From Arthrobacter sp. Leaf141 (GTDB taxonomy: Bacteria > Actinomycetota > Actinomycetes > Actinomycetales > Micrococcaceae): a stretch of 64,000 bases of DNA. Position 1 is the stretch's first letter. Every line of letters starts with the position of its first letter. The notes beneath the pieces are model-generated. The model saw nothing but the letters and a program-made list of their open reading frames with translations. It was not told where the DNA came from and did no database searches. Where the stretch lies: contig NZ_LMOL01000005.1 of assembly GCF_001424565.1 (NCBI RefSeq), forward strand, positions 259,820 through 323,819, in the 5' to 3' direction. A program made the position numbers and the translations under genes. Below, piece by piece: positions 42,361-60,644 of this stretch.

Positions 42361-43110
42361 TCAGGCTGCCCGCGCCAGGAGCAGGTCCGCGAGCGGCAGC
42401 GTGGCCGCAGGCAGGTCCGACGCTGCGGACACCGCCGCAGCGTAGCCATCCGGGGCTGCGACGGCAGCCGCCGTCAGGCCATGGACCTGCGGGGTGCCGG
42501 GGCAGTCGGCGCGGAGCAGGGTGCGCTCCGGCGTTCCGGCGTCGACTGTTACCAGGTGGACGGCCGCGGGCGTCACCGACAGGCCCAGCCCGGCGGCCTT
42601 GAGGACCGCTTCCTTAGCCACCCACAACCGCAGCCGTGCCGGAACGTCCTGCGGCGCCAGGCTGAGGCGTTCATCCGTTGAGGCCACGTAGTCGTCAAAA
42701 CCCTTGAACAGGTTTCCGGGCACCAGTTCGATGTCGGCCCCCACCGGGGTGCCGGCCGGGCCGGCGGCGGCCATCACTGCGCCGTGGCTGCGGGAGAGGC
42801 TCAGGCTCAGGCCCGCCACTTCGGGTTTTCCGTGGGCTGTGCTGCCGCAGCCGGCGCAGCTGCGGGTGACCTGAAGGTGCCGGGCAGCCAGCGGCTGCCG
42901 GCCCAGCTGCCGCGCTGCCAGGAGCCGGAACAAGGCATGTGAAGCGGCGTAGTCCAGCCGGTCCCCGGCCCGGGTGTACTTCCTGGCTGCCTCCGCTTCG
43001 GCGGGGGACAGGTACGCGGCCAGGCCGCCGGTGGGGGCGCAGGCCAGCTCCAGGTCCCGGGACAGGGCGCTGAGGAAAACAGTGCCCTGTCCCGGCCCGG
43101 CAGTGGTCAT
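42361..43110 (-). CDS. Sfp-type 4'-phosphopantetheinyl transferase
   Basis: Enzyme of 249 residues that loads the phosphopantetheine arm onto carrier domains; here it should activate the three T domains of the adjacent NRPS. Motifs: G-A-D-I-E (124-128), with the Mg2+-binding Asp and Glu, and W-V-A-K-E-A-V-L-K-A (163-172). C-A-G-C-G-S-T-A-H-G-K-P (85-96) is typical of the Sfp/Gsp type. It overlaps the ABC permease gene by four bases (ATGA) and is the last gene of the NRPS operon. PPTases can also serve other pathways, but this position argues for a dedicated role. Confidence 0.9.
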   Translation of the reverse strand: MTTAGPGQGTVFLSALSRDLELACAPTGGLAAYLSPAEAEAARKYTRAGDRLDYAASHALFRLLAARQLGRQPLAARHLQVTRSCAGCGSTAHGKPEVAGLSLSLSRSHGAVMAAAGPAGTPVGADIELVPGNLFKGFDDYVASTDERLSLAPQDVPARLRLWVAKEAVLKAAGLGLSVTPAAVHLVTVDAGTPERTLLRADCPGTPQVHGLTAAAVAAPDGYAAAVSAASDLPAATLPLADLLLARAA

Positions 43111-43907
43111 CGCTTGCTGATCCGCCGGTACTGGGCGATGGCCAGCGGCGCGAACACGGCGATGATGGCCACGCTGCAGAGAATCGAGTACAGCACGGCG
43201 TTATCTGCAGGCCAGCCGCCCGGAACGCCGAACCCTGCCGGGGCGGCATTGCCGAACAACTCGCGGGCGGAGGTGGCAACGGCGGTCACGGGGTTCCATT
43301 CCGCGATGGTCCGCAGCGGCCCGGGCAGCGTATCCACAGAGACAAACGCGCCGGAAATGAACGTGACAGGGAACAGCCAGACGAGACCCAGGCTCTGGGC
43401 CACCTCCACGCTCCTGGCGGTCAGTGCGATGACCGCACCGATCCAGGACACGGCGAACGCGAACAGCAGCAGCAGGCCCAGGGCGGCCAGCGCCTGTCCG
43501 GGGCCGCCGGTGATGCGCCAGCCGATGGCCAGGCCGCACACCATGGTGGCAGCCACCGACAGCACGCTGGTGGCCAGGTCTGAGGTGGTGCGGCCCAGGA
43601 TGACTGCCACCCGGGACATGGGCAGCGACCGGAACCGGTCAATGAGCCCCAACTGCAGGTCCTTGGCCAGGTACACGGCCGTGAAGGACGCGTTGAAGGT
43701 CAGGGTCTGGGCCAGGATTCCGCCGATGAGGAAGCTGCGGTACTGGTCCCCGCCCAGGGTTCCGCCAAACACAAACCCCAGCAGGAGCACAAACATAATG
43801 GGCTGGACGAGGCCGGTGACCATGGCGCCGGGGGTGCGCAGGACGTTGAGCAGGTTGCGCCGGGCGATGACGGAGCTGTCGCGGGCGGCTGCGGTGAGGG
43901 CGCTCAT
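43107..43907 (-). CDS. ABC-2 type exporter permease (DrrB-like)
   Basis: Membrane subunit of 266 residues with six TM helices, in the daunorubicin-resistance DrrB/ABC-2 family: R-N-L-L-N-V-L-R-T-P at the cytoplasmic N terminus, a Q-P-I-M-F-V-L-L-L first helix, and G-A-F-V-S-V-D-T-L-P before the last helices. It pairs with the ATPase gene, which it overlaps by four bases (ATGA). Together they probably export the NRPS product or give self-resistance. Confidence 0.88.
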   Translation of the reverse strand: MSALTAAARDSSVIARRNLLNVLRTPGAMVTGLVQPIMFVLLLGFVFGGTLGGDQYRSFLIGGILAQTLTFNASFTAVYLAKDLQLGLIDRFRSLPMSRVAVILGRTTSDLATSVLSVAATMVCGLAIGWRITGGPGQALAALGLLLLFAFAVSWIGAVIALTARSVEVAQSLGLVWLFPVTFISGAFVSVDTLPGPLRTIAEWNPVTAVATSARELFGNAAPAGFGVPGGWPADNAVLYSILCSVAIIAVFAPLAIAQYRRISKR

Positions 43908-44872
43908 GCTGCCACCTCCTCTTTCTGCCGGGCCTGGTCGGCGGCGTGGCCGGTGAGCTGCAGGAAAACGTCGTCAAGGGTGGGCCGGCGGAGCGAGGCT
44001 TCCTCCACCGGGATGCCCACGGCGTCAAGGTCGGAGAGGATGCGCACCAGCGTCCGGTGGCCCTGCGGGGCGGCAATGGACACGCCCAGGTTTTGCGGGT
44101 CGATGTCGGGGCTGACGCCGGAGCCGGTTGCGGCGTCCAGGGCGGCAGCGGCGGCGGAAAGGTCGGAGGCGTGCCGCAGCACAACGCTGATGCGTTCCGT
44201 GCCGGCGCTTTGCTTCAGTTCGGTGGCGGTGCCCTCGGCGATGACCCTGCCGTGGTTAATGACGGCGATGTGGTCCGCCAGCCGGTCGGCTTCCTCGAGG
44301 TACTGGGTGGTCAGCAGCACGGTGGTGCCATCCGACACCAGCCGCGAAACAACATCCCAGGTGTCCAGCCGGCCGCGGGGGTCCAGGCCGGTGGTGGGCT
44401 CATCGAGCACCACCACTTTGGGCCGCGCCACAATGGCGCCGGCCAGGTCCAGGCGCCGCCGCATGCCGCCGGAGAATGTTCCGGACCGTTTATTGGCGAC
44501 GTCCGTGAGGCGGAAGCCTTCCAGCAGCTCATGTGCCCGGGCCGACGCGGTGCGGCGGTTCATGCCGTACAGCCGGCCCACCATGTGCAGGTTTTCGAAG
44601 GCGGTGAGTTTTTCGTCCACGGCCGCGTACTGGCCGGAAAGGCCAAGGTTGCGGCGGACCAGGGCCGGCGCTGCCAGCACCGAGTGGCCGGCCACCCGGG
44701 CGTCACCGCTGTCCGGTGCCAGCAGGGTGGTGAGGATTTTGACGGTGGTGGTTTTGCCGGAGCCGTTGGGTCCCAGCAATCCCAGGACTGTCCCTTCGCC
44801 TGCGTGCAGGGACAGCCCGTCCAGGGCCTTGAAACTGCCGAACGACTTGCTGACGTTCTCGATCCGGATCAC
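43904..44872 (-). CDS. Exporter ABC ATPase (DrrA-like)
   Basis: ATPase of 322 residues. Walker [10 protein letters not shown] (34-42), signature [12 protein letters not shown] (the MRRRLDLA form is typical of DrrA-type drug exporters), Walker [14 protein letters not shown] and a C-terminal regulatory domain ending [11 protein letters not shown], also a DrrA hallmark. The start is the GTG at 44872 that overlaps the mbtH stop (GTGA); the longer in-frame extension lies inside mbtH and is spurious. It is the energy subunit for the adjacent permease. Confidence 0.9.
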
Positions 44873-45081
44873 TGCGAAGCGGCGAGTTCGGCAACTTTGC
44901 GCGGCGCCATGTCGGTCCACGTCCGGGCGACGTAGTCCAGGCAGGCCTCGCGGTTGTCGGGGCCGAACATGGTGACCCAGCCCTGCGGCACTGCTGCGAA
45001 CTCCGGCCAGAGGGAGTGCTGCTGGAAGTCATTGACCAGTACGGAGAACGTTGCGGATTTGTCGTCGAAGGGGTTCGTCAT
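44869..45081 (-). CDS. mbtH: MbtH-like NRPS accessory protein
   Basis: Small protein of 70 residues with the complete MbtH signature: N-P-F-D-D near the start, V-L-V-N-D-x-x-Q-H-S-L-W-P, V-P-Q-G-W, and the C-terminal Y-V-A-R-T-W-T-D-M-x-P. MbtH proteins bind adenylation domains and are often needed for their folding or activity. It follows the NRPS gene by 65 bases and overlaps the exporter ATPase gene by four. Confidence 0.95.
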
Positions 45082-45146: not shown

Positions 45147-48100
45147 TTATTCGGCTCCGGCGCCCAGGTGGATGGCCAGCGCCGGCATGATTGTGCTGAG
45201 AGCCCGGTCACTTAGGAGCTGGGAGTGCCGGTCCGGGACGGGGATGTCGGTGATGGTTCCGGTGACGTAGGGGGTCCAGGACGTGGCGTCCGGGGTGCCG
45301 GCCGGTACCTGTTCGGTGGCACTGAAGAAGAGCAGGTCCCCGGCGAACACCTGCGGGCGTTCGTCCCTGATCAGCCGCGCCAACGCGGGGAAGTTCCCGG
45401 CCATGGCTTCTACGGAGTCGGTGGGAACGGTCCCCAGCGGGTTGTGGTTTTCGCGCAGGATTTCCTGGGCCCGGTGGACATCCACCGCGGCCAGGTCCTC
45501 GCCGGCCAGGTCATAGCCCTGCGCCTCGAGGTAGCTGGCCCAGAGGCCCGCCCCGCTGCCCGCTCCCGCATTGGATTCCTGGTTGTCCGGGAAGGCATCC
45601 AGGATGGCCAGGAACGCCACCTCATGGCCCAGGTCCTGCAGCCTCGTGGCCAGCCGGTGGGCCAGGTAGCCGCCGAAGGACCAGCCCAGCAGGTGGTACG
45701 GGCCTTCCGGCTGCACGGAACGGATCTGCGCGATGTAGTCATCGGCCAGGGCCGTCAGCGTTGCGGCGTCCACCGGGTGCGTGTTGCCGGGTTCCAGGCC
45801 AGGCATCTGCAGCCCGATCAGCGGCCGCTCCGGGTCCAGCCGGCCCAGCATGGCGGCGAAGCCCCAGCCGATCCCGGACGCCGGGTGCACGGCAAACAGC
45901 GGCGCCTTGCTCCCGGCGGTGCGCAGCGGCAGCAGCTGCCGCAGGCTGTCCGCGGCGCTTTCCGCCCCGCCCTTGGCAGCCTCGGCGAGCAGGCCTTCGA
46001 CAGTGGGTGCCCGGAACAGGGACTGGACCTGCAGGTCAGTGCCCAGCGCGGCATTGATCTTGGCGATCAGCGGCCTGGCCAGGAATGAGTGCCCGCCCAG
46101 TTCGAAGAAGGACTCGTCCACGCCGGCGCGGTCCAGGGACAGCACCTCGGCGAAAATGCCGGCCACCGTCTTTTCCTGGGGCGTCCGCGGGGTGAGTCCC
46201 GCAGCCCGGGTGGCGGTGCCGGGATCGGGCAGCGCGGCCGTGTCCACCTTGCCGTGCGGCGTCAGCGGCACCGCCGGGATGACCAGAACTGCTGCCGGGA
46301 CCATGTAGTCCGGCAGGAGCGCCCGGACATGGCTGCGGGCGGCGTCGGGCAGGCCTGCTGCAGGCCCGCCGTCGGACGGAACCACGTACCCCACCAGGCG
46401 CGCCGCGGCCCCGCTGCCAAAGGAGCGGACGACGGCGGCACGCACCCCGGGTGCGCCGCGCAGGGCGTTTTCAACTTCCCCGGTTTCCACGCGGAAGCCG
46501 CGGATTTTCAGCTGGCCGTCGTTGCGGCCGGCAAAAACGAGGCGGCCGTCGGCGTGCCGGAACACCACGTCGCCGGTGCGGTACATCCGCTCGCCGCCGC
46601 CGTGGAAGGGGTCTGCCACAAAGCGCTCCGCGGTGAGGTCCGGCCGGCCGCGGTAGCCGCGGGCCAGCTGGGTCCCGGCGATGTACAGTTCACCGGCGGC
46701 GCCGGGCAGCGTGTGCTGCAGCCTGTCATCCAGGACGTACAGCCGGGCGCCCGGGGTGGGCCGGCCCAGCTCCGGGGTGTCGCTGCCAGCCACCGCAGCC
46801 ACCACGGTGTCCACCGTGGCCTCGGTGGGGCCATAGAGGTTCCAGGCCCGCACACCGGGACGTGCCGCGACGGAGGTCCAGAGGCCGGCGTCGAACGCTT
46901 CCCCACCCAGGGCGAGGCTGAACGCATCGGAACCGCCCGGGTGGCCGGCCAGGAGCCCGGCGAAATCCGGTTCGGCCAGGAGCTGGCGGAGGTAACCCGG
47001 CGTGGTTTCCCATGCGCTGATGCCCTCCGCGGCGAAGTAGGCGGCGAGCCCCGCCGGGTCCCGGCGGAGGTCGTCGGAGACCACATGCAGCTCGTGTCCG
47101 GCCACCAGCCAGAGGATCGGATCCCAGGAGGCGTCGAAGCCCACGCCGGTGGTGTGGGCCACCTTGCGCCGGGTGATCCCGGCGAGCAGGGTTTCCCGGT
47201 GCGCTGCCAGCAGGGCAGCCAACGCGCCATGGCTGACTTCCACACCCTTGGGCCGGCCGGTGGACCCGGACGTGAACATCACGGAGGCCAGGTCCCGCGG
47301 CGAGGGGGCGTAGGGGACGGCGTCCCCGGCGGCCTCCGTGCCGATGAGCTCCTCAAGCAGGAGTACCCGTGGTTGGGTGGCCAGGCCGGCGATGATGCCG
47401 TCCAGCCGGCCAGACACGCCAGCCGTGGTCAGCACCACCGGCGGGGCGGCGTCCTCAAGGATGGCGGCCACGCGGTGGTCCGGGTATTCGGTGTCGATCG
47501 GGTTGTAGGCAGCCCCGGCGGCCAGGACCCCCAGGAGGCCCTGGACCGTTCCAGCGGAGCGGGGCAGCAGCACGGACACCGTGCCGCCGCCTGCCCCGGC
47601 CGTGGTGAGTCCGGCGGCGATGCGTCGCGCGGTAGCCGCCAGGTCCGCAAACGTGGTGGCGGCGCCGTCGGCCACCAGCGCCACGGCGTCCGGGGTGGCG
47701 CTGACGGTGGCGGTAAACGCGGAGAGGAGATCCGCATCCACGGCGTGATCTGCCGACTGGGAGCGGGACCCTGCGGTGGCTGCCATGAGACGGAGGGCTT
47801 CGGGCCCGGCCAGCAGCGGCAGGGCCGAGAGCGGCGTGTCGGGAGCTGCCGAGGCGAGGTCAAGCAGGCGCAGGAAACCGTTCACCAGGCGTTGCGCCGT
47901 ACCCGGTTCGAACATGGCGGCGTTGTAGTCCAGCGTGCCCGCCAGGGTGCCGTCGTCGCCGGGCCGGAAGGTGAAGGAGAGGTCGAACTTGGCCTCGCCG
48001 GACCCGGTTTCGGGCTCGGCGCTCACCGTAACGCCGGGCAGCTGGGGGACTGCCGGTGCGTCGCTGTCCACCGTGAGCATGGTCTGGAAGAGCGGATGCC

Positions 48101-54100: not shown

Positions 54101-55673
54101 ACAGGGCGATGGGGAGCAGCAGGCTCCGGTCCAGGCGGACGGCCACCGTGGTGCCCGGTCCGGCGCCGTGGCTTGCCAGGTACCGGGCCAGCTGGTTGGA
54201 ACGGGCCTCCAGTTCGGCGAAGGTGAGGGTGCCGTCCCCGGCAACCACCGCTGTCCGGTCGGGGCCGGCGGCGGCGTTGAGCTGGAATTCCTCCACGATG
54301 GTGTGGCCGGGCAAGGCCTGGTCCCCGGCATCGCCGGCCGCCAGCAGGTCCAGCTCCTCGGCCTGCGTGGTGACCGTCAGGTCCGCCAGGGTGGCGCCGG
54401 GCTGCGTGGCAACGCGTTCCAGGAGGCGGACAAACCGGTCCACGTGCTGAACCAGGGCGGCCTGGCCGTAGAGGGCGGCGTTGGCTTCGAACTGCACTGT
54501 TGGGCTGCCGGCGCCCAGGCCGTGGACCACAATCGAGAGGTCGTCGACGGGGCCGGTGGACAGAATGTTTACGGTGCCCTGCGCCGGACCGAAAGCGATG
54601 CCGTCCAGCACGGGCAGGATGTTCACGGACGGACCCAGGTAACCGCCCTGGGTGGGGAGGTCCTCGTAGCGGAAGCGCTGATGGACCAGGGCATTGCGGA
54701 GGTTGCGGCCCACGGCGGCTGCCGTCTCCTGGACGGTGGCTCCCGGGTCCACGGCCAGCCGGACCGGAACAATGTTGGAGAGCATGGACGGAGTGGACTT
54801 GGCCAGGTTGCCGCGGCGCGCCGTCACCGGCAGGGCAACGGAGACCTCACGCTCGCCAGTGATCCGGTGCAGGTACAGCGATGCGGCGGTCAGGATCAGG
54901 GCGGGTGCGGTGGCGGCAGCGGACTCAAGGGCAGCAGCCGCGGGGGCGCGCAGGACCCGGGCGGCGCGGACCAGCGATCCCGCGGCGGCATCCGGCCGGC
55001 CGGCGAGGCCGGTGGCGGGCGCGGCGTCTGCCAGCTCGGCGTCCCAGAAGGCTTTGTCTGCGGTGGCTGCTGCGGAGCCGGCGTACCCGGCCTCGGCGGC
55101 CAGGAGGTCCTGGAGCGGGGCGAAGGCGGTGATGCCGGCGGAATCCGGATCTCCGGCGTCGTCCGCCAGCAGGTCGTTGTAGAGGCCGGCGACGCGGCGC
55201 AGGACCAGCACGGCGGAGTAGCCGTCGAGCAGGAGGTGGTGCACCCGCTGGTAGAAGAAGTGGCGGTCCGGGGCCAGCCGGATGAGCTCGGTGTGCAGGA
55301 GCTGGTCCGTGGCGGCGTCCCGGGGCAGGCCCAGGTCGGCGTCCATCAGGGCGCGGGCCTGCGCTTCCGGGTCCGGCGCGGCTGCCAGGTCGGTGACCTC
55401 CATGGTGGCGGCACCGGGGCGGGGGTACTGGAACGGCCCGTCGGTGTCCTCGGCGAAGCCCAGGTTCAGGGCGTCCGTGCCGGCCACGGCCCGTTCCAGC
55501 GCGCTGGCCAGGACGGCCTCATCCAGGGGACCGGTGATTTCGATGAACTGCCCGATCTGGAACATCGGGTTCTCCGGTGCCAGTTTCTGCGCGTACCAGA
55601 TGCCGCGCTGGGCGGGCGTCAGGTCCAGCCGGGTGGCGTCGGGGACAGCGGGGTTCAGGGAATCGTGGGACAT
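45147..55673 (-). CDS. Three-module non-ribosomal peptide synthetase, C-A-T x3 plus thioesterase
   Basis: Giant synthetase of 3508 residues. Order: C1 (about 18-430, H-H-L-L-L-D-G 145-151), A1 (455-965), T1 (Ser1011), C2 (1065-1510, HHIAADG 1193-1199), A2 (1530-2030), T2 (Ser2080), C3 (2168-2615, HHIASDG 2322-2328), A3 (2650-3150), T3 (Ser3196) and thioesterase (3255-3508; Ser3332 in G-W-S-F-G, Asp3359, His3483). There is no epimerisation or methylation domain. C1 resembles the EntF condensation domain, which accepts an aryl-carrier donor in trans. By alignment with GrsA I read specificity codes DADEVLFVDK, DADELLFVDK and DADELLLVDK, so all three modules probably load the same or very similar residues. 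The acidic code residues (D, E) could favour a basic amino acid; that is a guess. C3 has a Gly/Ser-rich insertion at about 2241-2264. Product unknown. Confidence 0.95.
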
Positions 55674-55787
55674 GGTCCTTCTCTGGTTGAGGGGCGCCAG
55701 GCCCGGAGGCCTCGGGGCACTGCAAAAGGGCCGCAGGGCATGGCAAAAGGGCCCGGGCCTGCGGCGGCAGCCCGGGAACGTTGTTCC

Positions 55788-55810
55788 GGCGCCGGCTCAA
55801 AGCCGGCGCC
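55788..55810. terminator. Hairpin between the small secreted gene and the NRPS gene
   Basis: Perfect 10-bp arms (55788-55797 and 55801-55810) around a three-base loop, with no T-run. It lies in the 154-base gap ahead of the NRPS start. It may stabilise the short upstream message and limit read-through into the NRPS gene. Confidence 0.5.
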
Positions 55811-55827
55811 GCGGAATCAGCCGGGTG

Positions 55828-56121
55828 TTACTGGAACTGGCCGAACTGGAACGGGCCCACGTTGCCAATGCCCACCAGGGGGCCATCCACTACGGGGCCC
55901 TCCACCAGCGGACCGTTGATCAGGCCGCCGTTGAGGAACCCGCCGCTGAAGAGGCCGCTGAGGATAGTGGCGTCCTTGGCTGCGGCCACCTGCCCAACCT
56001 TTGTCCCGGCGTCGGACGTGGCTGCCTGGGCCGGAAGCGAGGTGGCGGCGAAGGCCGTCAGGGCCAGCAGGGAGGCGGCGGCGGTGCGGGTCAGGGTCTT
56101 GGCAGTCTTGTTCACAGTCAT
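55828..56121 (-). CDS. Small secreted protein with pentad repeats
   Basis: Protein of 97 residues with a Sec signal peptide (basic N terminus, A-A-A-S-L-L-A-L-T-A core, A-Q-A cleavage after residue 33). The mature part has about 64 residues. Residues 61-85 form five tandem pentads, G/P-hydrophobic-hydrophobic-x-G: GFLNG, GLING, PLVEG, PVVDG and PLVGI. It ends in an aromatic/Gln tail, FQFGQFQ. No Cys. I do not recognise a family; the regular repeat suggests a small beta-solenoid-like or self-assembling surface peptide. It lies upstream of, and on the same strand as, the NRPS gene. TGGAG stands just ahead of the ATG. Confidence 0.65.
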   Translation of the reverse strand: MTVNKTAKTLTRTAAASLLALTAFAATSLPAQAATSDAGTKVGQVAAAKDATILSGLFSGGFLNGGLINGPLVEGPVVDGPLVGIGNVGPFQFGQFQ

Positions 56122-56204
56122 CTCCAGTCAGGTAGCAAATGTTTCCACACACCCGAAGGTGTCATAGGAGCATTCGGACCTGCTGGAATTCCGGATGGGA
56201 ATTC

Positions 56205-57641
56205 CTACTTCCCCTGCCGTGCCGAGAGCCGCGCCACAGCCAACGCCAGCCAGAGCTGGACCCTGTCGGTGGTGACGGCGGGGTCGTACCCCGTCAGCTC
56301 AGTGATCTGTGCCAGCCGGTACCTGACGGTGTTGCGGTGCAGCGTGAGTTCCTCGGCAACGGCCGCCACGGAGCCGTTGTTGTTCAGGTAGCTTTCCAGC
56401 GTGGCCATCAGCTCCGCGCCGTGCGCCGCATCGAAGGTCCGCAGCGGATTCAAGGACTCGTGCGCCATGTCGGCGAGGGGCACGTCTTCGCTGGCCAGCA
56501 GCAGCGAGGTCAGGCTGAGGCGCTCCGGTTCGTTGACCGGCAGGCCGTGGCTGGCAGCGTCCCGGGCCTCGAAGTAGCTCCACCGCAGGCCGTTGGGTTT
56601 GGTGTAGGCGCCGCCGATGCCGATGGTGGCGTGGATGCCGGCCTCCGCGAGGTGGTCGCTGAGCTGGCGGGCCAGCGCCGGCGCCGTACCGCCGTCGTCA
56701 TTGATCACCAGGACAAGGTCCTTGCCCACGACGGCGGCCACGGCGTTTCCGAGGCCGCGCGGCACCGAGGTGCTCCCCAGGGCCTTGTTATGGGCGGCGG
56801 AAACGGCCAGGAGCACCACGTTCTTCCGGGTGCTGTTCACGCCCACCCCGGCCAGCCGGCGCTGCGCCTCGCTGGTTTCCAGGGCCCCGTGGATCACGTC
56901 CTCCAGCACCTGCCCGCACAGGGCACGCTGGGCCTGCCGCTGCTTGACCATGTTGTTCAGCTCCACGCTGATCAGGTTCTGGGCGTAGCCAATGATCCCG
57001 GAGTCCTCAAAAGGCTGCCGGACCCAGAGCGTGCAGGCGTCCCGGCGGCCGGTGGGGATGGGGTAGGAGGACCACGTATCAGCGGCGGGGGATTCGCTGG
57101 TGCTGTTGTACAGCTGGGCCGTGAACTGGCTCAACGCGATGTCCGTCCGCAGCATGCTGCCCAGGTGCTTGAGGAGCTCCGCCAGGCCGCCGCCGGTCAG
57201 CAGCGCCCGGGCGAGGACCTGGTGCCCAGCGATGAGCCGCTCCAGCTTGGCGTAGTGGTCAGCGGACTGGGCGTCCGCCACGAGTTTGCCGATCGCGATG
57301 AACGGGGTCTCGTACGGGACCTCCACCACGGGCAGGCCCCAGCGGTTGGCTTCCGCCAGCAGCGCCGGCGGCACCGCATCATGCGTCAGGCCCACCCCGA
57401 AGCCGATCCCCACGGCCCCGGCCCGCTGGACCTGGCGGACAAACCGGCGCTGCTCCGGAGCGGACCGGAGGCGCAGCCCGGTGGTCAGCACCAGCTCGCC
57501 GCCGTTGATGAAGCGCTGCGGATCCTCAAGTTCCGTCACGGCCACCCAGTTGATGTCCTGGTTCCAGGTGGTTTCGGCGACTCCCACGTTGGACAGCTTC
57601 AGGGAGCCCACAGCAAGGAGGGCAGCAAGGGAAATGGCCAT
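56205..57641 (-). CDS. PucR-family transcriptional regulator
   Basis: Regulator of 478 residues. The N-terminal PucR ligand domain (about 15-130) contains L-V-L-T-T-G-L-R-L-R, a GGDEF-like middle region follows, and the C-terminal helix-turn-helix (HTH_30) is Y-L-N-N-N-G-S-V-A-A-V-A-E-E-L-T-L-H-R-N-T-V-R-Y-R-L, written here as the family's most conserved block. PucR proteins activate purine, amine or amino-acid catabolism. It is divergent from the aminobutyraldehyde dehydrogenase gene 156 bases away, so it most likely controls the GABA/putrescine genes. It also lies upstream of the small secreted gene and NRPS on the same strand. Confidence 0.87.
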   Translation of the reverse strand: MAISLAALLAVGSLKLSNVGVAETTWNQDINWVAVTELEDPQRFINGGELVLTTGLRLRSAPEQRRFVRQVQRAGAVGIGFGVGLTHDAVPPALLAEANRWGLPVVEVPYETPFIAIGKLVADAQSADHYAKLERLIAGHQVLARALLTGGGLAELLKHLGSMLRTDIALSQFTAQLYNSTSESPAADTWSSYPIPTGRRDACTLWVRQPFEDSGIIGYAQNLISVELNNMVKQRQAQRALCGQVLEDVIHGALETSEAQRRLAGVGVNSTRKNVVLLAVSAAHNKALGSTSVPRGLGNAVAAVVGKDLVLVINDDGGTAPALARQLSDHLAEAGIHATIGIGGAYTKPNGLRWSYFEARDAASHGLPVNEPERLSLTSLLLASEDVPLADMAHESLNPLRTFDAAHGAELMATLESYLNNNGSVAAVAEELTLHRNTVRYRLAQITELTGYDPAVTTDRVQLWLALAVARLSARQGK

Positions 57642-57797
57642 GCCACAAGGATAAACGGACGCTGGGCAACCGCACTAACCCCAGCGGCTAAAGGTGTGCA
57701 GGTGGCTATTCACGGCGGCAGGGTGCTGGCATAGGCTCAAGGCAGTTCCATCCATCCGCCCTGGCGCCGATGGCCCCTATGAAAGAGGTTGCACACC

Positions 57798-59228
57798 GTG
57801 GTCCAGACCTTGCAGAACTTCATCAACGGACAGTTCGTCACCCCGGCCGGCACCGACCTGCTGGACATCGTGAACCCCACCAACGGTGAGGTGGTGGCCC
57901 ACTCGCCCGTCTCCGTGGCAGCAGACGTTGATGCAGCCATGGCGGCCGCCAAGGACGCGTTCCGCACGTGGAAGCACGTCACCCCCGGGCAGCGGCAGCT
58001 GATGCTGCTCAAGCTCGCGGACGCCGTTGAGGCGAACAGTGCTGAACTGGTCGAGGCCCAGCACCGCAACACCGGCCAGGTGCGTTCGCTGATCGCTTCG
58101 GAGGAAGTAGCCGCCGGCGCCGACCAGCTCCGCTTCTTCGCCGGCGCCGCCCGCATCCTGGAAGGCAAGTCCGCCGGCGAATACTTCGAGGGCCACACCT
58201 CCTACGTCCGCCGCGAACCCATCGGTGTGGTGGCGCAGGTGGCCCCCTGGAACTACCCGTTCCTGATGGCCATCTGGAAGATCGGCCCCGCGCTCGCCGC
58301 CGGCAACACCGTGGTCCTCAAACCCTCGGACACCACCCCCGAATCCACCCTGGTGCTGGCCCGGCTCGCAGGGGAGATCCTGCCCGCCGGTGTCCTGAAC
58401 GTCGTCCTGGGCACCGGCGAGACCGGTTCGCTGATGGTGGAGCACAAGGTCCCCGGCCTGGTGTCCATCACCGGTTCGGTCCGGGCCGGCATCGCTGTGG
58501 CTTCCGGCGCCGCGAAGGGCCTCAAGCGCGCCCACCTGGAGCTGGGCGGCAAGGCACCCGCCATCGTGTTCAAGGACGCAGACCTCAAAAAGAGCGCAGC
58601 GGCCATCGCGGAGTTCGCCTTCTTCAACGCCGGCCAGGACTGCACGGCCATCACCCGGGTGCTGGTCCAGGACGAGGTGCACGACGACGTTGTGGCCGCC
58701 ATGGTGGAGCACACCAAAACGCTGCACACCGGTTCGCAGGACGACGAAGAGAACTACTTCGGGCCGCTGAACAACGTCAACCACTTCAAGCAGGTCACCT
58801 CCGTGGTGGAAAACCTGCCCGCAAACTGCCGGATCGAAACCGGCGGCCACCGCGCAGGCGACAAGGGCTTCTTCTTCGAACCCACCATCATCACGGGCGC
58901 CAGGCAGACGGACGATGTGGTCCAGCAGGAAACGTTCGGCCCGGTCATCACCGTGCAGCGGTTCAGCACCGAAGCCGAAGCCGTGGAGCTGGCCAACGAC
59001 GTGGACTACGCCCTGGCCTCCAGCATCTGGACCACCGACCACGGCACGGCCATGCGCCTGAGCCGCGACCTGGACTTCGGTGCAGTCTGGATCAACACCC
59101 ACATCCTCCTCACCGCCGAAATGCCGCACGGCGGCTTCAAGCAGTCCGGTTACGGCAAGGACCTCTCCATGTACGGCGTGGAGGACTACACCCGCATCAA
59201 GCACGTGATGAGCGCGCTGGACTCCTGA
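57798..59228 (+). CDS. patD: Gamma-aminobutyraldehyde dehydrogenase
   Basis: NAD-dependent aldehyde dehydrogenase of 476 residues. It oxidises 4-aminobutanal to GABA in putrescine breakdown, by analogy with PatD/PuuC enzymes. Catalytic Cys282 lies in F-N-A-G-Q-D-C-T-A; the general-base Glu is in L-E-L-G-G-K-A-P; P-W-N-Y-P and G-S-V-R/T-x-G-I complete the NAD site. The F-N-A-G-Q-D-C-T variant is typical of aminobutyraldehyde dehydrogenases. GTG at 57798 is used, nine bases after AAAGAGG; an in-frame TTG at 57789 touches that site. The transaminase gene follows by 45 bases, completing a putrescine/GABA route. Confidence 0.87.
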   Translation: MVQTLQNFINGQFVTPAGTDLLDIVNPTNGEVVAHSPVSVAADVDAAMAAAKDAFRTWKHVTPGQRQLMLLKLADAVEANSAELVEAQHRNTGQVRSLIASEEVAAGADQLRFFAGAARILEGKSAGEYFEGHTSYVRREPIGVVAQVAPWNYPFLMAIWKIGPALAAGNTVVLKPSDTTPESTLVLARLAGEILPAGVLNVVLGTGETGSLMVEHKVPGLVSITGSVRAGIAVASGAAKGLKRAHLELGGKAPAIVFKDADLKKSAAAIAEFAFFNAGQDCTAITRVLVQDEVHDDVVAAMVEHTKTLHTGSQDDEENYFGPLNNVNHFKQVTSVVENLPANCRIETGGHRAGDKGFFFEPTIITGARQTDDVVQQETFGPVITVQRFSTEAEAVELANDVDYALASSIWTTDHGTAMRLSRDLDFGAVWINTHILLTAEMPHGGFKQSGYGKDLSMYGVEDYTRIKHVMSALDS

Positions 59229-59273
59229 CCCCCATCCTCGCTCCGCAACCCCGGTTTCCCTGAAAGGCCTGAC

Positions 59274-60644
59274 ATGACCACCACAGCACCCGACATCACC
59301 TACCGCCTGGAGCAGAAGCGCCGCGTCCAGGCCGACTTCCCGGGCCCCAAGTCCGTGGCACTGACCGAACGCCGCAAGGCTGTGGTAGCTGCCGGCGTCG
59401 CCTCCAGCGTCCCCGTCTTTGTTGCCGACGCCGACGGCGGCATCATCCACGACGTCGACGGCAACTCCTTCATCGACCTCGGCTCAGGCATCGCGGTGAC
59501 CAGCGTGGGCGCCTCCGATCCCGCCGTCGTGGGCGCCGTGAAGGAAGCCGTGGAGCACTTCACCCACACCTGCTTTATGGTCACCCCGTACGAAAGCTAC
59601 GTGGCGGTTGCCGAACAGCTGAACCGGCTCACCCCGGGTGACCACGAAAAGCGCACCGTGCTCTTCAACTCCGGTGCCGAAGCCGTGGAAAACGCCGTCA
59701 AGGTGGCCCGCCTGGCCACCGGACGCGACGCCGTTGTGGCCTTCGACCACGCCTACCACGGCCGCACCAACCTGACCATGGCGCTGACCGCCAAGGCCAT
59801 GCCGTACAAAACCAACTTCGGCCCGTTCGCGCCCGAGGTCTACCGCATGCCCATGAGCTACCCGTACCGCGAGGAAAACCCCTCGATCACGGGCGCCGAG
59901 GCCGCCAAGCGCGCCATCACCATGATCGAAAAGCAGATCGGCGGGGACCAGGTCGCCGCGATCATCATCGAGCCCATCCAGGGCGAGGGCGGCTTTATTG
60001 TCCCTGCCGAAGGCTTCCTGCCGGCCCTGGCCGACTGGGCCAAGGAAAAAGGCATCGTCTTCATCGCTGACGAGGTCCAGTCGGGCTTCTGCCGCACTGG
60101 TGAATGGTTCGCCGTCAACCACGAAGGCGTCATCCCGGACATCCTGACCATGGCCAAGGGCATCGCCGGCGGCATGCCGCTGTCCGCCATTACCGGCCGG
60201 GCAGACCTGCTCGACGCCGTCCACCCCGGCGGCCTCGGCGGCACCTACGGCGGCAACCCGGTGGCCTGCGCCGCCGCGCTGGCGTCCATCGGCTCCATGG
60301 AGCAGTACGACCTCGCCGGCCGTGCCCGCCACATCGAGGACGTGGCCACCACCCGGCTCCGCGCGCTGCAGTCAGAGCTCTCCGCCGCCGGGACCGGCGT
60401 GATCGGCGATGTCCGCGGCCGCGGCGCCATGCTGGCCATCGAGCTGGTCCAGGCCGGTTCCAAGGAGCCCAACACCGACCTGACCAAGGCCGTCGCCGCA
60501 GCCTGCCTCAAGGAGGGCGTCATCATCCTCACCTGCGGCACCTACGGCAACGTGATCCGCCTGCTCCCGCCGCTGGTCATCTCTGACGAGCTCCTGAACG
60601 ACGGCCTGGACGTCCTGGCCGCCGCCATCAAGGCGCACGCCTAG
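59274..60644 (+). CDS. gabT: 4-Aminobutyrate aminotransferase
   Basis: PLP-dependent class III aminotransferase of 456 residues that moves the amino group of GABA to 2-oxoglutarate, giving succinate semialdehyde. F-N-S-G-A-E-A-V-E-N-A-V-K, D-H-A-Y-H-G-R-T-N-L-T, E-P-I-Q-G-E-G-G-F, D-E-V-Q-S-G-F-C-R-T-G and the PLP lysine Lys295 (M-A-K-G-I-A-G-G) are all present. It works directly downstream of PatD. A succinate-semialdehyde dehydrogenase is not in view. A clean terminator follows. Confidence 0.92.
   Translation: MTTTAPDITYRLEQKRRVQADFPGPKSVALTERRKAVVAAGVASSVPVFVADADGGIIHDVDGNSFIDLGSGIAVTSVGASDPAVVGAVKEAVEHFTHTCFMVTPYESYVAVAEQLNRLTPGDHEKRTVLFNSGAEAVENAVKVARLATGRDAVVAFDHAYHGRTNLTMALTAKAMPYKTNFGPFAPEVYRMPMSYPYREENPSITGAEAAKRAITMIEKQIGGDQVAAIIIEPIQGEGGFIVPAEGFLPALADWAKEKGIVFIADEVQSGFCRTGEWFAVNHEGVIPDILTMAKGIAGGMPLSAITGRADLLDAVHPGGLGGTYGGNPVACAAALASIGSMEQYDLAGRARHIEDVATTRLRALQSELSAAGTGVIGDVRGRGAMLAIELVQAGSKEPNTDLTKAVAAACLKEGVIILTCGTYGNVIRLLPPLVISDELLNDGLDVLAAAIKAHA

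Follow-up and report, generated by a model that had tools for sequence, protein, structure and literature searches.

In mycobacteria, the SigK regulon comprises sigK-rskA, mpt70, mpt83 and dipZ, and the sequence CCATCC-CCGAAT is reportedly the consensus of SigK. A second known arrangement is that of an EntF-type nonribosomal peptide synthetase (NRPS) with MbtH and a DrrAB exporter, and the chaplins are known as secreted proteins. To our knowledge, neither an NRPS nor a GQFQ peptide has been placed in the mycobacterial SigK regulon. The membership of this regulon is described, in part, in PMC7509140.

The window, i.e., the whole stretch of 64,000 nucleotides from Arthrobacter sp. Leaf141 analyzed here, was described in a previous sequence-only reading as containing a gene for a secreted protein of 97 residues on the strand of the neighboring NRPS gene. 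This open reading frame was present as described (Table 1). It starts with ATG, preceded immediately by CTGGAG, which was recognized by eye as the ribosome-binding site, and the encoded peptide runs from MTVNK to GPFQFGQFQ. The proposed secretion agreed with a Sec signal peptide visible by eye, in whose region P30, A31 and A34 were invariant in alignment A1. The five in-register pentads of the pattern [G/P]-hydrophobic-hydrophobic-x-G (GLFSG, GFLNG, GLING, PLVEG and PVVDG) were also found, although five residues upstream of the claimed positions 61-85, since residues 81-85 (PLVGI) break the pattern. When the mature region was shuffled 200,000 times, five consecutive pentads were never obtained and four consecutive ones were obtained once. 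AlphaFold2 gave no confident fold for the window protein (alignment of 10 sequences, mean pLDDT 48.5) and no usable fold for a 33-aa form of the family (16 sequences, mean pLDDT 60.4).

Table 1. Features of the peptide-NRPS cassette, with their positions in the window.
Feature	Coordinates	Strand	Basis or remark
97-aa GQFQ-tail peptide gene	55828..56121	minus	ORF, translation, homologues
Signal-peptide part, residues 1-33, AQA/A site	56023..56121	minus	read by eye
Five exact pentads, residues 56-80	55882..55956	minus	pattern scan
C-terminal motif GPFQFGQFQ, residues 89-97	55831..55857	minus	GQFQ invariant in alignments A1 and A4
SigK-type box CCATCC-N15-CCGAAT	56172..56198	minus	50 nt before start codon
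Short stem-loop GACACC-TTCG-GGTGTG	56148..56163	minus	between box and ribosome-binding site; read from sequence
11-bp stem with 3-nt loop	55787..55811	minus	between peptide and NRPS genes
NRPS, 3508 aa	45147..55673	minus	condensation/adenylation/carrier in three modules, then thioesterase
Second SigK-type box	45149..45175	minus	over NRPS 3' end, before MbtH
MbtH-like protein, 70 aa	44869..45081	minus	named from sequence
DrrA-like ABC ATPase	43904..44920	minus	profile match
DrrB-like ABC permease	43107..43907	minus	profile match
4'-phosphopantetheinyl transferase	42361..43110	minus	profile match

The repeat had been regarded as belonging to no known family and, indeed, the window protein had no Pfam or NCBIfam match, while five homologues gave only weak ones (best E 0.018). 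With a cutoff of E 10, neither the window protein nor these five homologues matched the PF00805 pentapeptide-repeat model or a chaplin model, the MbtH family profile did not match the window peptide, and a phage and plasmid search with the window protein gave no match. The best PDB match of the window protein (E 3.2) and that of the peptide profile (E 0.56; MelC, in the signal-peptide part) were both judged to be chance. Judged by their titles and abstracts, the papers listed in literature searches deal with neither this peptide nor its NRPS.

Homologues were then sought at increasing distance. Among 150 genomes of the genus, 28 gave matches at E <=0.01 and 18 of them proved real on reading the translations, the other 10 looking like chance repeats; in named records, the relatives (eight loci) belonged to Arthrobacter and Pseudarthrobacter. 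Matches were obtained in 17 of 295 genomes in the family-wide search and in 44 of 396 in the order-wide search, both of which added further genera. The real members of the order ended in GQFQ, and many other order-wide matches were unrelated repeats. The class-wide search gave matches in 48 of 394 genomes, none of the 25 loci tested there ending in GQFQ. Sixteen wide-profile matches without this end were read and none was accepted as a member: the readable ones were stretches of low complexity, stretches resembling pentads, or N-termini of signal-peptide type, and stops interrupt two matches (L062 and L090). Members were thus counted in 11 genera (g1, g3, g12, g17, g22, g24, g28, g37, g42, g86 and g98) of five families (f1, f6, f8, f11 and f13). 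The peptide gene is a real, conserved family without earlier description.

In an alignment of 16 representatives, only a single G-P pair and the GQFQ at the very end were invariant. Hence the aromatic/Gln tail, which had been mentioned as the end of the repeat, turned out to be more important than the pentads. Conservation of the repeat, on which the earlier interpretation was to be judged, speaks partly against it: the run of five pentads is not kept in homologues and the pentad number varies; by eye, there is one GP unit in g37 and g3, there are two in g42, g86, g98 and g12, and there are more than two in the Arthrobacter group. Pentad number was therefore discarded as a mark of the family: its signature is the C-terminal tail, and the repeat is the variable part. 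In the last 25 codons, compared within six groups, dN was lower than dS in 44 of 46 pairs, and dS was zero in the remaining two (0.02/0.00 and 0.06/0.00). The N-terminus also varied. Signal peptides were recognized by eye in g1, g17, g22, g24, g28, g37 and g42, but not in the 33-aa forms of g86 and g98 (e.g., L116) or in the 49-aa form of g3, and the N-terminus of the g12 form resembles a membrane segment, so that not all members would act outside the cell. In two genomes (L129 and L137), the peptide tail (PFQFGQ) is duplicated, SPFQFGQTGPFQFGQFQ.

The suggested link with the NRPS stood up to a co-occurrence check, the peptide not being found mostly without it. Within the genus, a search with the first condensation domain found the NRPS in 18 of 150 genomes, exactly the same 18 that carry the peptide. 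Within the order, it was found in 16 of 297 genomes at E <=1e-100, all 16 with the peptide: in 11 it had already been detected, and in five more, all g37, it was recognized on reading the DNA. Since the peptide profile had missed these five copies, a peptide search alone undercounts. All 37 loci longer than 10 kb had an NRPS homologue just downstream, including the first condensation domain, with 42-76% identity in the best stretch. In the 33 loci where the distance was measured, 78-265 nt separate the peptide stop from the start of this domain, and the gap between the two genes in the window is 154 nt. The two contig-end copies, L019 (G014, one of the 18) and L059 (G165), belong to genomes in which a different contig begins with the NRPS (E 2e-143 in G165). 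No GQFQ-ending copy away from an NRPS was found among the loci read. In all genomes of the samples searched, the peptide keeps to a single trimodular NRPS lineage; for more distant NRPSs of the class (7.1-Mb genome G873, genus g156; 11 loci), the 1.5 kb preceding the match contained no GQFQ peptide. The distances of the peptide and of the first condensation domain (C1) were correlated (Mantel r 0.83, 0 of 5000 permutations, 37 loci), a result that common descent with the species alone could also give. In three loci (L041, L118 and L126), the NRPS frame is interrupted, by sequence error or decay, and the peptide gene is intact.

The cassette is flanked by genes for a PucR-type regulator, an aldehyde dehydrogenase and a GABA transaminase in the window (56205-60644) and in several relatives. 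As these neighbors occur in some genomes of the genus and the sites are different elsewhere, the peptide-NRPS pair seems to move as a unit.

The co-regulation with the NRPS proposed earlier was likewise upheld at the sequence level by a SigK-type box upstream of the peptide gene. The pattern C[CA]ATCC-N15/16-NCGAA[TC] was present in 42 of 42 peptide upstream regions, 46-79 nt before the start, 35 boxes being strict (spacer 15-16, CCGAA) and seven relaxed; L113 (close to L112), L133 (close to L038) and L019 (cut at the contig end) were left out of this set. Mononucleotide-shuffled upstream regions fitted the box at rates of 8e-5 (strict) and 6e-4 (relaxed), figures to be read with the pattern having been framed after viewing these very regions and with the 42 copies not being independent. 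Consequently, boxes elsewhere in the genomes provided the independent tests. In eight genomes the strict box occurred 63 times and the reversed control three times. RskA (PF10099) was found in all eight, and in five of them (G000, G060, G564, G610 and G470) rskA was preceded on its own strand by a strict box at a distance of 1-2 kb, with none near rskA in G263, G404 and G466. Nineteen of the 63 boxes were read, in 16 stretches, and 12 more lay in NRPS cassettes, seven before the peptide and five at the NRPS end. In four of the eight genomes a box preceded genes for MPT70/83-like fasciclin lipoproteins, and further genes after the boxes read included an ECF sigma gene adjoining rskA and genes for CHRD-like, DUF4383 and DsbD/thioredoxin proteins. 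Pfam supported three of the fasciclin genes and the sigma gene of the window genome; the fasciclin gene of G060, a CHRD-like protein and a DUF4383-like protein owe their names to the sequence only. Other boxes, before an ABC ATPase, a molybdopterin oxidoreductase and genes without identification, may be due to chance. Over or after the NRPS end, a second box, strict or relaxed, was present in nine of 14 cassettes.

We presume that the box upstream of the peptide is a SigK box, given its match to the mycobacterial consensus CCATCC-CCGAAT. Since the same box precedes sigK-rskA and fasciclin genes, the cassette peptide-NRPS-MbtH-DrrAB probably belongs to the SigK regulon. In g156, a genus of another family of the class, large NRPS genes also carry strict boxes (L180, 1324-1350; L183, 1309-1335), 150 and 165 nt before the matched NRPS start and facing the NRPS, without a GQFQ peptide. 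SigK control of NRPSs may thus be wider.

Regarding the content of the cassette, an MbtH-like gene followed the NRPS in the 14 cassettes read. When 16 cassettes, not all covering both flanks, were compared, the gene clusters among the matches listed were NRPS in 16, ABC ATPase in 14 and permease in 11. No other cluster among these matches, such as a conserved modifying enzyme of RiPP type, was present in more than five of the 16, and the 4'-phosphopantetheinyl transferase of the window was shared with none of the other 15. The adenylation-domain codes obtained by anchor reading had D-A-D-E at the first four positions in all modules where these were read, including the window, although the anchors gave no reading for 12 of 31 sequences and overlooked modules in others; the code read by eye differs from the anchor code at some positions. 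The shared D-A-D-E hints at similar, perhaps basic, monomers.

The unchanging tail, the place before one NRPS and the SigK-like switch together indicate that the peptide and the NRPS probably act as one unit. The peptide would most likely be made along with the NRPS product and serve as its partner, being exported in most cases. The main rival is a cis-acting leader, in which the nascent C-terminal core would stall or pace the ribosome and so set read-through into the NRPS or its translation. The open reading frame does stand directly before the NRPS in the loci read, and its constant core lies within the last ~25 residues and reaches the stop. Furthermore, a leader would leave the N-terminus free to vary, so that signal peptides could come and go, as in the 33-aa forms that lack one. 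As to RNA structure, the hairpin reported between the two genes is present, with a stem of 11 bp instead of the claimed 10, and an uninterrupted stem of at least 9 bp was found in 14 of 33 intergenic regions, chosen without close copies; some of the others form long imperfect hairpins, among those listed. Nevertheless, 19 of the 33 regions, including all those tested from g37 (5/5) and g42 (3/3), have no such stem, so no common RNA switch was seen by this test. Moreover, pentad expansion and tail duplication would be needless for stalling, and secretion signals would serve nothing. A leader is considered unlikely, although it retains real weight, since the core ends the nascent chain just ahead of the NRPS and signal-less forms exist. 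No Rfam family matched the window at the gathering score, and three weaker matches in 55500-56400 were judged to be chance. Many Arthrobacter copies, also L034-L041, keep a short, putative stem-loop after the box together with GGAAAC or a near form.

The strict linkage and the signal-less forms would equally suit a cytosolic action on the NRPS, in which the peptide would assist as MbtH-like proteins do or pair with the first condensation domain; in the window, this domain has FQIGQF near its start, resembling the peptide tail. However, the resemblance does not covary, as the domain of g37 reads FQIGLY while its peptide keeps GQFQ, and mimicry of the C1 start by the tail was not upheld. With a separate MbtH-like gene in every cassette read (14/14) and a Sec signal, by eye, in most forms, this explanation appears quite improbable. 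Slightly less probable still is a secreted peptide with a structural or antimicrobial task of its own, which merely shares the promoter and has no functional contact with the NRPS. Its secretion (by eye), repetitive nature and hydrophobicity would be accounted for, and a hairpin after the first gene would yield more peptide than NRPS, but such a peptide would not be expected to lack, as it does among the loci read, any GQFQ-ending copy apart from the NRPS.

Taken as a whole, the best explanation, which we hold tentatively and with somewhat less than even confidence, is a SigK-driven cassette whose exported peptide is a trans partner of the NRPS product; with the same reserve, the family would consist of small, hydrophobic, mostly acidic peptides whose genes head NRPS cassettes of SigK type. 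SigK freed from RskA would transcribe the peptide gene and then the NRPS behind it. In many genera, MbtH and the exporter would be served by the second box, close to the NRPS end. The stem found at 14 of 33 loci could favor peptide over NRPS, a role that a hairpin after the first gene plays in many peptide operons. The peptide would be exported, by Sec in most genera, and the NRPS product would leave probably through DrrAB. The constant GP..GQFQ core would act in trans as a carrier, anchor or co-assembling component for the exported product, and the pentads that some lineages add before the core might tune length or avidity. In its simplest reading, the constant tail would be a binding epitope used with the exported product, and the duplicated tail fits such an epitope acting in trans. 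A bolder idea, which we regard as distinctly doubtful, is a two-part natural product, in which a ribosomal peptide and a nonribosomal tripeptide would come from one operon under an envelope-stress sigma factor and act together, with the constant GQFQ tail as the docking or even attachment site for the NRPS product. We know of no obligate ribosomal-nonribosomal pair of this kind, and a brief search of the literature showed none.

For a family without annotation, a genetic partner is now defined and a regulator is likely, and the SigK/RskA pair, familiar through the antigens MPT70 and MPT83, would be linked to a nonribosomal metabolite. The gene is small and deletable, and with it one could test for an obligate pairing of ribosomal peptides with NRPS products. 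Short genes before NRPSs, having no family model, are easily missed in cluster annotation.

Compared with known systems, the loci resemble leader and arrest peptides of the TnaC/SecM type in having a short open reading frame before a regulated gene and C-terminal conservation, but in the stem search no switching RNA structure common to all lineages was seen. With PF00805 proteins, chaplins and elastin-like repeats they share short hydrophobic tandem units, whereas no model matches and, in the GQFQ family, the pentads vary and the tail is invariant. Like EntF-type systems, the cassette combines condensation, adenylation and carrier domains, a thioesterase, an MbtH-like gene and ABC export; unlike them, it has three modules with near-identical pockets (D-A-D-E in the window) and a peptide gene in front, and no tailoring gene was seen in the window cassette. 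As in the mycobacterial SigK regulon, sigK-rskA and fasciclin genes of these genomes are preceded by the same type of box.
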